This document shows, piece by piece, positions 20,764 through 33,718 of a DNA stretch of 55,646 nt. How positions within the stretch are numbered: position 1 is the first letter of the stretch; each line of letters begins with the position of its first letter. Source of the DNA: Syntrophales bacterium (GTDB lineage Bacteria > Desulfobacterota > Syntrophia > Syntrophales > CG2-30-49-12); contig JASEGZ010000007.1 of NCBI GenBank assembly GCA_030018935.1, forward strand, positions 1-55,646, read 5' to 3'. The translations under genes were made by a program, and so were the position numbers. The notes beneath the pieces were generated by a model, which did not search any database, had not been told where the DNA came from, and saw nothing but the letters and a program-made list of their open reading frames with translations.

Positions 20764-20805
20764 TTACCCCCATAAGGATGGCGTTTTCTTCTTGCCTTTT
20801 CTCAT
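20764..20805 (-). CDS. 13-codon leader ORF below the btuB riboswitch
   Basis: Directly after the riboswitch the sequence AAAGGAGG, five bases, then ATG starts a 13-residue basic frame (MRKGKKKTPSLWG) ending in TAA. The ribosome site is better than that of many real genes here. It may be a leader peptide, or the site may be an expression platform for the riboswitch. No family is known to me; the size makes it uncertain. Confidence 0.4.
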   Translation of the reverse strand: MRKGKKKTPSLWG

Positions 20806-20844: not shown

Positions 20845-20996
20845 CCTGTCAGATGAGTCTCCTGGCTTACGGCTATGCCTCCTTCCCACGCCTTCCCAGT
20901 TCCCTTTTCAGGAAATCAGTGGCATCATGTGGGTCTTGTTCCGCTTACAGTTGCGGGGCAGCGCCGGCTTTTGACCGGCTTCCTCGGTCTGACAGA
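20845..20996 (-). promoter_or_regulatory. Cobalamin riboswitch upstream of btuB
   Basis: On the minus strand the conserved core CCGGCGCTGCCCCGCAAC-TGTAAGCGG, the GCCACTG segment and the B12 box AGCCAGGAGAC occur in order. The closing stem is CTGTCAGA (20995-20988) with TCTGACAG (20853-20846), eight perfect pairs. Adenosylcobalamin binding should repress btuB and the genes beyond. The 5' third of the aptamer lies within the btuD coding region. Confidence 0.95.
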
Positions 20997-21775
20997 TTTG
21001 CTGCAACGAGTGTTACTCTCGGCAATCCGACTTGCGGATTCCTGTCCACTATTACCTCAGTTCCATAAACCTCCCTGATATTTGATTTCCTGATCACCTC
21101 GCCGGGAGTTCCCATACAGTGGATACTCCCCCTGTCGAGAAGGATGATTCGATCACAGTAGAGTGACGCTAAATTTATATCGTGGGTGACAGAGATAACG
21201 GTCAGCCCCTCCTCCCTGTTTAAGGTCTTTACCAAATTGAAGAAATTCACCTGGTGTTTAATGTCGAGAAAGGCCGTAGGCTCATCGAGAAGTATGATCT
21301 GTGGTTCCTGGGCCAGCGCCCGGGCGATCAAAACCCTCTGCCGTTCACCGCCGCTTAACTCACCGATGCTTCTGTGGGCAAAGGAGAGGGTATCTGTCAT
21401 CTCCATTGACCTGCGGGCTATTTCGTGATCTTTCTTTCCCTCAAACCTCAATTTTCCCAGATGGGGCGCCCTCCCCATTAAAACTATCTCCTCGACACAG
21501 AAAGGAAATATCAGGGGCGCCTCCTGCGGGACGACGGCGACGAGCCTGGCCAGGGCATCTCTTTTCATTTCCCTGATATTAACGCCTTTGATCCATACAC
21601 TCCCCTCTTGAGGAACCAGTACCCGGTCAATAATCTTGAGGAGTGTCGTCTTACCGGAGGCGTTCGGTCCGATTATCCCCCAGAACTCCCCTTTGCCGAT
21701 GACGAAAGAGATATCCTTGAGGACCCATTCTCCCGTGTATCTGAAGCCGATCTCTCTTGCCTGCACAATCGTCAT
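20945..21775 (-). CDS. btuD: Corrinoid ABC transporter ATP-binding protein
   Basis: ATPase of the BtuCD/FecE family: Walker A GPNASGKTT, signature LSGGERQRV, Walker B IILLDEPTAFLD, H-loop THDINLA. It starts 3 bp after btuC. The usual C-terminal domain end (VDRNPQVGLPRVTLV) is followed by about 17 residues (ending GAAPQL) encoded by the 5' part of the next riboswitch, so the stop codon lies inside the aptamer core. Confidence 0.94.
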   Translation of the reverse strand: MTIVQAREIGFRYTGEWVLKDISFVIGKGEFWGIIGPNASGKTTLLKIIDRVLVPQEGSVWIKGVNIREMKRDALARLVAVVPQEAPLIFPFCVEEIVLMGRAPHLGKLRFEGKKDHEIARRSMEMTDTLSFAHRSIGELSGGERQRVLIARALAQEPQIILLDEPTAFLDIKHQVNFFNLVKTLNREEGLTVISVTHDINLASLYCDRIILLDRGSIHCMGTPGEVIRKSNIREVYGTEVIVDRNPQVGLPRVTLVAANLSDRGSRSKAGAAPQL

Positions 21776-21778
21776 GGC

Positions 21779-22786
21779 TCAATCAGTCCTCCTGCGGAGG
21801 AGGTAAATAAAATACGGGGCGCCACACATAGCGGTAATAACCCCCACCGGCAATTCTGTATGGGGGATCACCGTTCTGGCAATGGTATCGGCTACGATCA
21901 GGAAGGATGCCCCGAAGAGAAGAGAGGCGGGCAGCAACAGCCTGTGATCGGAACCAACGAGCATCCTCATAATGTGCGGGATAATAAGCCCTACGAAGCC
22001 TATAATTCCACTGAAGGAGACGGCTAACCCGGTTATCAGGGAAGCGGCAAGAAAGAGCCATATTTTTGTCCTTTCCACATTTACCCCCAACTGCATGGCC
22101 GTTTCCTCGCCGGTGACAATCAAGTTCAGGGGCCCTGCCTCAAGATAGATAATGGCAAACCCGATGATCAGAAAGATGCCTGTCAGAATAATCTCGCCGG
22201 CAGTTGCGAGACTCAAATCCCCCATTAACCAGAACGTTATATTATGCAACTCAGCGCTGGTGCTCATGGAAATGAGAAACATGATGATCGCCGAAAAGAA
22301 GGCATTGACGATAACGCCTGCAAGGAGAAGGGTATTTGGATTCGTTCTTCCGATGGCAAAAACGAGGACAACGGTAAGGACGGCACCCAGAAGGGCCAAC
22401 GCCGGGATACTGAATGGAAGAAAACCTACGCCGATAACAATACCAATAATGGCTCCCACAGCCGAACCTCCGGATATCCCGAGAATGTAAGGGTCCGCCA
22501 GAGGATTGCGCAGGAGGGCTTGAAAGACAACACCGGCAGTGGAAAGGGCAGCGCCAACGATACCGGCAAAGATGATCCTGGGCAAACGAATCGAAAAGAT
22601 GATAGTCTTTTCTGCGGGCGTCAATCCGGTAAAACCTTCATGCCATCCATACAGGAGTCCCTTGAGGCTCCCGATAACCTCGATCTTAGCTGTTCCAACA
22701 AGCAAAGATACAAGAACAACAGCAAGAAAAACCGCAGCCAGCAAAAGGTTAATCTTAATTATCCGGGATAGAATTGATTTTCTCAT
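21779..22786 (-). CDS. btuC: Corrinoid ABC transporter permease
   Basis: FecCD-family permease of 335 residues with about ten membrane spans. Family motifs include RLPRIIFAGIVGAALSTAGVVFQ and NPLADPYILGISGGSAVGA, plus the coupling-helix region GLIIPHIMRMLVGSDHR. Its ATG overlaps the stop of a 47-codon gene by 4 bp, so it is translationally coupled to that gene and lies under the riboswitch at 22953-23094. It pairs with btuD and btuF. Confidence 0.95.
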   Translation of the reverse strand: MRKSILSRIIKINLLLAAVFLAVVLVSLLVGTAKIEVIGSLKGLLYGWHEGFTGLTPAEKTIIFSIRLPRIIFAGIVGAALSTAGVVFQALLRNPLADPYILGISGGSAVGAIIGIVIGVGFLPFSIPALALLGAVLTVVLVFAIGRTNPNTLLLAGVIVNAFFSAIIMFLISMSTSAELHNITFWLMGDLSLATAGEIILTGIFLIIGFAIIYLEAGPLNLIVTGEETAMQLGVNVERTKIWLFLAASLITGLAVSFSGIIGFVGLIIPHIMRMLVGSDHRLLLPASLLFGASFLIVADTIARTVIPHTELPVGVITAMCGAPYFIYLLRRRTD

Positions 22787-22926
22787 CGCTCAGAATCCCA
22801 CGGAATCTGAAATAGCGGGAGAAGTTTGCCTTTGGCAAAAAAATATCTGACACCTTGAACCAGGATTGATTTACAAGCTTCCCGGAAACGGATAAGGTAG
22901 GTAGGTAGATTCAGAAAATTCTTCAT
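22783..22926 (-). CDS. 47-residue protein between cobalamin riboswitch and btuC
   Basis: A complete small frame: GGGAGG seven bases before the ATG at 22926, 47 sense codons, and a TGA that overlaps the btuC start as ATGA. This coupling is like that of the operon's accepted genes. The product starts MKNFLNLPTYLIRFREACKS, is basic and hydrophobic (LVQGVRYFFAKGKLLPLFQI) and ends WDSER. It has no clear transmembrane helix, but may be an amphipathic membrane-surface peptide. I recognise no family. It could be a small subunit or regulator of BtuCD, or merely a coupling leader. Confidence 0.6.
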   Translation of the reverse strand: MKNFLNLPTYLIRFREACKSILVQGVRYFFAKGKLLPLFQIPWDSER

Positions 22927-22952
22927 GGCATACCTCCCGCGAGGAATCTCGG

Positions 22953-23094
22953 ATGGACAGGTCTTCCGGCTCAGGGCTATCTACTTGCCCGCCTTCCCAC
23001 CATGGTATTACCCATGACAGTGGCTCATCGGGCTTTCGCTCCCTTCACGGCTGCGGGGCAGCGGGGGCCTTACACCCCTCTTCCTCACGTCCAT
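22953..23094 (-). promoter_or_regulatory. Cobalamin riboswitch upstream of the btuC operon
   Basis: The minus strand carries the core GCTGCCCCGCAGCCGTGAAG, the GAGCCACTG segment and a textbook B12 box (GAGCCGGAAGACCTGTCC). The closing stem is ATGGAC (23094-23089) with GTCCAT (22958-22953). It lies between btuF and the 47-codon gene whose ribosome site begins 20 bp downstream, suggesting translational or transcriptional control of btuC, btuD and the rest. Confidence 0.95.
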
Positions 23095-23177
23095 TCGGGT
23101 ATGATTTAACGGTGTAACGATAAGGCAAGAATCGTTGGATGTCAAGGAAAAAAAGCACCGCGCGGTTTTCCCTTATT

Positions 23178-24170
23178 TCAATGTTGATGACCTTGGAAAA
23201 GTTCCGGATGGATTATCTTCACCAGTTCTTCCAATCCGTTAATAATTCTCGGCGAGGAACGGGTTATCAGATCGGTATCTATCGTATAGATCCGGTCATT
23301 TCTGACTGCTGGTATGTTTTTCCATTTCTTCCATTTATCTCTAAGGGAGGCAAAGTTTTCCTCTCTTTTCATCGAGGTTATGATGATGACATCCGGTTGT
23401 TTTACCATTACCTCCTCTATACTGTAGCGGGGATACTTTATTGTATCTCCTCCGGCGACATTTACTCCCCCAGCCAGTGTTATCAGCTTATCATGAAGGG
23501 TATCCCTACCTACGGTAATCATCGGATCGGTACCCAGGAGGAGAAATACCCGTGGTTTCTTCATCTGCCTGGTTTTCAAAACAACAGACTCAACCCTTCT
23601 TCGCAGGTTGAAAATCAGTTTTTTTGCCGTATCTTCTTTCCCCGTAATTCTGCCGATATCTAACACCATCTTTAATATATCTTCGAGACTAACCGGATTG
23701 ACTATGTAAACGGGAAGACCGATTCTCTCGAACTGTTCAACGGTCTCCCTTCTATTCCCGTCGGAGGTACCTATAATCAGATTGGGACTGAGAGAAACAA
23801 CCCTCTCGAGAGAGATGTTGATAAAACCACCAACCTTTGGTTTCGACCTGACAGCGGGAGGGTAATTACAGAACATGGTTACCCCCACAATCTCCTTATC
23901 CAGACCGAGGGCGAAGAGCGTTTCCGTTATACTGGGGGCAAGGGATATGATTCTTTTCGGATAGGGGGTGATATTTACTTTTCTCCCCACTTCATCAATG
24001 TACACCCGGGCATGAACTGGGGAGGGGAACAAAAGGAAGAGCGAAAAGATCAAGAAAAACAGGAGAAATCCAGCATTAATTTTGTCACGAGATGTTACCA
24101 TCTGATAAAACACTGTCCACTTTGTCATCCTCATCCCTACTCCCCTTACCCTTTCATTGATAAGGGACAT
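23178..24170 (-). CDS. btuF: Periplasmic corrinoid-binding protein
   Basis: Class III substrate-binding protein. A basic N-region and hydrophobic stretch (about residues 33-53, ending PVHA) form a signal peptide, followed by two lobes with the family start PKRIISLAPSITETLFALGL. The exact start is uncertain: in-frame ATGs at 24134, 24128 and 24101 give a more normal signal peptide. It precedes the riboswitch rather than lying under it, and no second aptamer is visible upstream, so its control may differ from that of btuC and btuD. Confidence 0.88.
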   Translation of the reverse strand: MSLINERVRGVGMRMTKWTVFYQMVTSRDKINAGFLLFFLIFSLFLLFPSPVHARVYIDEVGRKVNITPYPKRIISLAPSITETLFALGLDKEIVGVTMFCNYPPAVRSKPKVGGFINISLERVVSLSPNLIIGTSDGNRRETVEQFERIGLPVYIVNPVSLEDILKMVLDIGRITGKEDTAKKLIFNLRRRVESVVLKTRQMKKPRVFLLLGTDPMITVGRDTLHDKLITLAGGVNVAGGDTIKYPRYSIEEVMVKQPDVIIITSMKREENFASLRDKWKKWKNIPAVRNDRIYTIDTDLITRSSPRIINGLEELVKIIHPELFQGHQH

Positions 24171-33128: not shown

Positions 33129-33407
33129 TTGAAAAAGCGCTTTAATATCAAAATACTGGGGCAGGAGCTTTCAGTTGTAAGTGATTCGGGGGATGAACAT
33201 GTGGCAAATGTTGTACGGTATGTTAATAACAAGGTGGAGGAAATAGGAAAAGCATCAAGCAATATCAACACCTTGAATGTTGCCATCATGGTGGCTTTAA
33301 ACATTGCCGATGAGCACTTCAAATTTGAGGAAGTAAATAGAGGTATTTACAGTCAACTGGAAAGCAGATCTGAAGAGTTAATCAATCTTATAGATGAAAT
33401 AAATTAA
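33129..33407 (+). CDS. zapA: Cell division protein ZapA
   Basis: FtsZ-bundling protein of 92 residues. The start FNIKILGQELSVVSD and the segment VVRYVNNKVEEI followed by ALNIADEHFK fit ZapA. It uses a TTG start (33129) preceded by GAGGTAG. 6S RNA follows at once, the order zapA-ssrS seen in many proteobacteria. Confidence 0.9.
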   Translation: MKKRFNIKILGQELSVVSDSGDEHVANVVRYVNNKVEEIGKASSNINTLNVAIMVALNIADEHFKFEEVNRGIYSQLESRSEELINLIDEIN

Positions 33408-33408
33408 T

Positions 33409-33596
33409 CCCCTGCGATGTGCGTGCTTAACGTTCATTTTTTGAGCCAACACCTTGAAACGGGAAACCTTTCCTTGTTCGCTGTGTGCATGTCTGCCTAT
33501 ATCTCCTGAGAGGGGGAGGTGGAAAGCCTGAAGCAACAACAGGGTACCCACCTTGTTGAGAGGTTCAAAAAGGTGGTTAACACGGCATCAGTGGGG
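33409..33596 (+). ncRNA. ssrS: 6S RNA (ssrS)
   Basis: A roughly 188-nt segment after zapA whose ends pair (CCCCTGCGATG at 33409 with CATCAGTGGGG ending near 33596; GTGCTTAAC with GTTAACAC inside), leaving a large central bubble, as in 6S RNA. A T-rich run follows (GTTTTTATTTTTT). 6S RNA binds sigma-70 RNA polymerase. The conserved place beside zapA supports the call; ends are approximate. Confidence 0.85.
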
Positions 33597-33718
33597 GGTT
33601 TTTATTTTTTCTCCGTGATTGATTCCTGTAACCCATTTTTCCTTCTTGTTCCTTTCCCTATTTTTGTCCCCCTTAACGCAAAAAATATCATTTAATTGAT
33701 AGTTTGGTTTTTCCTTTC

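Follow-up and report, generated by a model that had tools for sequence, protein, structure and literature searches.

A short open reading frame between a cobalamin riboswitch and btuC in a Syntrophales genome: a probable leader translationally coupled to the permease gene

Introduction

The enteric btuB and cob leaders carry B12 riboswitches that act on translation, an L5-L13 kissing loop hiding the ribosome site of the regulated gene itself. In the window (the whole 55,646-nucleotide stretch of Syntrophales DNA analysed here), a 47-codon open reading frame (ORF) lies between a cobalamin riboswitch and a btuC-type gene. What is this frame for? A sequence-only reading had suggested that it encodes a small partner of BtuCD or, alternatively, serves as a translational gate to btuC. 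A search of the accessible literature found no paper linking Syntrophales to cobalamin riboswitches.

Organization of the btuC locus

The locus is read from the minus strand in the order btuF, riboswitch, leader ORF, btuC, btuD, second riboswitch and btuB-like receptor gene. Its main features are as follows.

23178-24170 (-): btuF-type periplasmic binding protein gene, upstream of the riboswitch (PF01497; best NCBIfam match BtuF)
22939-23109 (-): cobalamin (B12) riboswitch aptamer, preceding the leader ORF (RF00174 in Rfam; 69.7 bits, E 3.5e-15; gathering cut-off 31.5 bits)
22933-22944 (-): P13-type hairpin CCTCGCGGGAGG, containing the Shine-Dalgarno (SD) sequence of the leader ORF
22783-22926 (-): leader ORF, ATG start, 47 codons and a TGA stop, MKNFLNLPTYLIRFREACKSILVQGVRYFFAKGKLLPLFQIPWDSER
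22783-22786 (-): ATGA, overlap of the leader stop and the btuC start
22780-22823 (-): predicted hairpin TTCTC-CGC-TCAGA-TCC / GGA-TCTGA-GCG-GAGAA, burying the btuC start codon
21779-22786 (-): btuC-type permease gene, FecCD family (PF01032, E 1e-92; best NCBIfam matches BtuC, under the equivalog cut-off)
20945-21775 (-): btuD-type ATPase gene, starting 3 nt past the btuC stop (Pfam and NCBIfam profiles)

Inspection of the sequence confirmed the frame as first described, from its ATG through 47 codons to the TGA, as well as the good ribosome site (GGGAGG, 6 nt from the ATG) and the ATGA shared with btuC. The spacing of 27 bp given for the distance to the aptamer depends on the boundary chosen: about 27 nt separate the ATG from the last aptamer helix, 12 nt from the end of the Rfam model. 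The other genes of the locus had been thought to be joined in the same manner; in fact, a 3-nt gap separates btuC from btuD, and btuF and btuB are unjoined.

The leader SD sits in the P13-type hairpin, whose CGGG loop is complementary to CCCG in L5 (CTGCCCCGCAG). This complementarity suggests an L5-L13 kissing-loop arrangement. A similar element, CCTCGnGGGAGG, occupies the same place, together with an SD, in nearly all of about 50 btuC loci (see below). The SD of the leader ORF is strong (duplex energy -11.6 kcal/mol) whereas that of btuC is weak (-4.0 kcal/mol). The btuC start codon lies in the predicted hairpin at 22780-22823, the 5' arm of which is formed by the final codons of the leader. 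This hairpin has a folding energy of -18.8 kcal/mol and a z-score of -2.5 over 60 nt, falling to just -1.3 over 101 nt. Mean unpaired probability around the btuC start (0.18) is the lowest among the 24 loci compared. Thus, by prediction, btuC is without an efficient ribosome site of its own.

The presence of the frame is in itself statistically unremarkable, since 14.5% of dinucleotide shuffles of the spacer stay open to btuC, and once a shuffled spacer is open in the leader frame the ATGA overlap follows automatically. Codon usage has a mild coding bias that is specific to this frame: the leader frame scores +0.07 bit per codon and the two other frames -0.09 and -0.12. The leader score is equalled by 1.8% of open shuffles and falls at the 17th percentile among pieces of real coding sequences. 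In the btuC frame, a TGA lies two codons ahead of the btuC ATG, so no in-frame extension of btuC is possible in the window, nor can a single upstream frameshift error explain the split between the two frames.

Two further observations concern RNA elements of the window. Over about 100 nt (20945-21045, minus strand), the second riboswitch aptamer is shared with the 3' end of the btuD-type gene, and coding and aptamer constraints therefore coincide. Elsewhere, a match to 6S RNA was found at 33406-33601 on the plus strand (RF00013, 89.3 bits).

Comparison with related loci

Genome G001, the sole same-genus genome compared, differs from the window at 5 of 215 nt in the riboswitch region (98% identity). 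It keeps CCTCGCGGGAGGTGTGCC, followed by ATGAAGAATTTTCTGAATCTACCT, identical at 24 of 24 nt, and continues from there directly into btuC without a change of frame (MKNFLNLPAFLSRIIKINL...); the contig ends after about 50 btuC codons. The part of the leader retained is the following.

22903-22926 (-): first 8 leader codons, the only part of the leader kept in G001 (24/24 nt identical), where they form the start of btuC itself

G001 lacks approximately 125 nt of the window, and with them 39 of the 47 leader codons; the adjoining btuC segment is 87% identical (109/125 nt). Since the SD and start are kept with the riboswitch while 39 codons are lost, these elements, as opposed to the peptide, make up the conserved unit. 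A repeat or mobile insertion was considered as the source of the additional 125 nt and rejected, the stretch being single-copy in its genome. An imperfect 11-nt direct repeat found at this stretch, with copies 92 nt apart, is within chance expectation. No btuB was detectable in G001.

The comparison was extended to about 50 distinct loci of the order (probably Syntrophales) in which a cobalamin riboswitch directly precedes btuC. Across these loci, the start codon that follows the SD hairpin mostly belongs either to btuC, with a variable N-terminal extension, or to a leader of 19-55 codons that shows little conservation. In the fused class, btuC starts 4-11 nt past the SD and carries about 10-37 additional residues, which in some genera are hydrophobic. 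The classes comprise:

Fused to btuC: L010, L013-L016, L024, L025, L029, L089, most of L153-L176, G001
Leader running up to or into the btuC start: the window, L008, L069 and L074 (ATGA); L062 (TGATG); L007, L072, L011, L012 and L151 (overlaps of 19-34 nt); L009 (3-nt gap)
Leader of 19-55 codons with its stop 47-130 nt short of btuC: L003-L006, L017, L020, L022, L026, L086

Coupling by overlap is not universal, as the leaders of the nine relatives in the last class show. Of 18 leader lineages, eight end on the btuC start or within -8 to +35 nt of it, against 3.8 expected (P 0.009), a result that is just suggestive because the classes rest on the btuC start and the start codon chosen and the selection was post hoc. 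In genera of group f2 (L008, L062, L074, L069, L011, L012, L091, L094), an ACG or GCG has taken the place of the ATG that follows the riboswitch SD. Leaders of g2 and g31 are opened by a GTG 5 nt further on, and no start is left in g22; altogether, the start codon is absent from the expected place in four loci, belonging to g22 and g44. A MITE-like inverted-repeat sequence has apparently inserted into the leader-btuC spacer of L004 and L005, and in L268 (G027) the P13 SD of a cobalamin riboswitch is immediately followed by a 6-codon ORF, MKKIPY.

A BtuC tree placed all of the fused loci included, together with outgroups from outside Syntrophales, on one side of a supported branch (98/89), with the split loci forming a grade on the opposite side. 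Because the fused loci group with the outgroups across this branch, the fused state is probably ancestral and the split state derived, and G001 was probably re-fused by deletion. G001 itself was too short to enter the tree, whose root is uncertain and several of whose forks are weak.

The leader peptide

The peptide was searched for among 149 related genomes of the same order, and no homologue was found; comparison with Pfam, NCBIfam, the PDB and plasmid sequences gave no match. Its maximal 19-residue hydropathy (0.99) is under that of a typical membrane helix. Pairs of related leaders differ at all codon positions and have pN/pS ratios of 0.5-1.0, suggesting that leader peptides evolve without strong protein-level selection; for fused extensions, the ratio is 0.18-0.20 in two close pairs and 0.47-0.63 in the others. 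A frame kept in relatives with an excess of synonymous changes, the mark of a conserved small-protein gene, was not observed. The C-termini of the btuC leaders share no conserved motif near the stop, and a leader acting by ribosome stalling or peptide sensing was rejected on this ground.

A model for coupling and its alternatives

The locus has one strong SD, set in the riboswitch hairpin, a leader stop that overlaps the btuC start, and a btuC gene with a weak SD and a start codon within a hairpin. This anatomy suggests that the leader ORF is a riboswitch-gated leader translationally coupled to btuC, which we consider its probable role. The cobalamin riboswitch would control the sole strong ribosome site, the one in the P13 hairpin. 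When B12 is scarce, ribosomes would start at position 22926, read the 47 codons and, in doing so, open the hairpin covering the btuC start. Having terminated at the TGA of the ATGA, they would reinitiate at its ATG and synthesize BtuC. When B12 is bound, P13 and the L5-L13 kissing loop would hide the SD, leaving the leader unread and btuC shut. The leader peptide would be a dispensable by-product; its sequence would be immaterial as long as ribosomes read the frame and it terminates at btuC. Retention of the riboswitch, SD, ATG and first 8 codons in G001, the use of the hairpin SD for btuC or a leader in most of the about 50 loci, the count of leaders ending near the btuC start and the mild coding bias also favour this model. 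The chance of about 0.15 that the frame stays open to btuC, which pertains to this ORF alone, and the less marked z-score of the hairpin when more context is included weigh against coupling, as do the nine leaders that stop short of btuC and the four loci lacking a start codon at the expected place.

The same chance openness (0.145) lends some credit to the notion that the ORF is incidental, the spacer being open by accident and serving no function. Gene btuC would then use its own weak site, or its start would be the leftover of a lost N-terminal extension. Neither peptide nor leader length is conserved, the fused extensions of relatives vary greatly too, and four loci are missing the start codon. 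If the leader were untranslated, however, the riboswitch SD would control nothing and the usual translational route from B12 to btuC would be lacking. Together with the weakness of the btuC SD, the hairpin over its start and the frame-specific codon usage of the leader, this makes an accidental frame unlikely, though still a serious contender.

Less probable still, we think, is a relay at the level of transcription, whereby translation of the leader would shield the mRNA from Rho; blocking of the leader by B12 would cause termination before btuC and the overlap would be unneeded. Such a mechanism would account for the relatives in which the leader stops 47-130 nt ahead of btuC, some of which (L003, L005, L026) have a better btuC SD. 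It also has a parallel in the Mbox of Mycobacterium tuberculosis, which reportedly acts on a small upstream ORF (uORF) partly through Rho (PMC12810186). The leader, however, is just mildly C-rich (32 C and 27 G in 141 nt), and Rho was judged not to explain the effect of uPPE2 in M. tuberculosis (PMC11260477).

The proposal that the leader encodes a genuine small protein, such as a BtuCD partner, drew on the good SD, the basic composition of the peptide and its genomic position. The same reading had named disruption of the frame in a close relative, with btuC and the riboswitch conserved, as evidence to the contrary, and G001, which retains both while 39 of the 47 codons are absent, provides just that. 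With no homologue in the 149 genomes of the order, no family match, hydropathy under the level of a membrane helix and leader pairs at pN/pS of 0.5-1, we regard this proposal as very improbable. An assembly or sequencing error that would have detached the true BtuC N-terminus may be dismissed as scarcely credible: fusion of this ATG to btuC in G001 and fusion in many relatives invite the idea, but the error would have to fall within the 6 nt between the TGA and the btuC ATG, and the 125 nt absent from G001 are single-copy in the genome of the window.

Relation to known systems

Like the enteric btuB and cob leaders, the window would place an L5-L13 kissing loop over a ribosome site. In the enteric systems, as in the fused Syntrophales loci, the regulated gene's own site is the one hidden; in the window, it would be that of the leader ORF.

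A closer counterpart to coupling through the leader exists in M. tuberculosis, where the B12 riboswitch of ppe2 controls uPPE2 and an AUGA overlap relays this control to PPE2. Mutagenesis showed that the relay occurs mainly by termination-reinitiation; PPE2 expression is severely reduced when the SD or start of the uORF is removed and is also reduced when the stop is moved (PMC11260477). The two systems share a B12 riboswitch, a strong uORF SD within the expression platform, in a hairpin that bears the L5 partner, an out-of-frame AUGA, a downstream gene without a good SD (by prediction for btuC) and a uORF that is at most partly conserved (PMC11260477). Thus, the experimental system with the same layout joins the anatomy of the locus in supporting the suggestion of a translational gate. 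The window differs in phylum and riboswitch subtype, in regulating a transport permease gene, btuC, in place of ppe2, in the predicted hairpin over the btuC start, and in that relatives often use the same start codon as the gene's own; its case is made at the level of sequence.

Two other riboswitches offer further parallels. The Mbox of M. tuberculosis reportedly also governs whether a small uORF is translated, but its ligand is Mg2+, its uORF is conserved and Rho-dependent termination is involved (PMC12810186). The metA SAM-II riboswitch of Sinorhizobium meliloti reportedly controls translation at a distance; it resembles the window in having a riboswitch-controlled first start codon with a further start downstream, and differs in ligand and class (PMC9373788).

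The leader is most likely a further case of this recently recognised arrangement and not a new small protein gene. If so, relay through a uORF would be a recurring wiring of translational riboswitches and not a mycobacterial oddity, and the presence of a riboswitch-hidden ribosome site more than 100 nt away from the regulated gene would be explained. For annotation, leaders of this type should then not be called small proteins, nor should the btuC start be set mechanically at the first ATG past the riboswitch.

Leaders at btuB

The second cobalamin riboswitch of the window is directly followed by another short frame.

20764-20805 (-): 13-codon ORF MRKGKKKTPSLWG, with a strong SD (GGAGG)

The stop of this ORF lies 64 nt short of the btuB-like receptor gene; the latter has an SD of its own. 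Leaders after the btuB riboswitch were also found in relatives (MKRGEKKIPPL, MKQTVNKNPP, MKKAVNKNPP and MNCTESNIPP, each up to its stop), while in most Syntrophales loci examined btuB starts directly at the leader position. Leaders thus follow the riboswitches of both transport genes under B12 control, and the lineages concerned partly coincide. It is conceivable, and we put it forward tentatively, that B12 riboswitches of one order repeatedly act through a fast-evolving leader ORF at btuC and btuB, the controlled start alternating between gene start and leader start, and that the sole selected property of such leaders is to be translated up to the gene.

The N-terminus of MKRGEKKIPPL resembles that of MRKGKKKTPSLWG. 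Several btuB leaders (L003, L006, L020, L244) have a Pro-Pro pair at or near the stop, which could slow termination.
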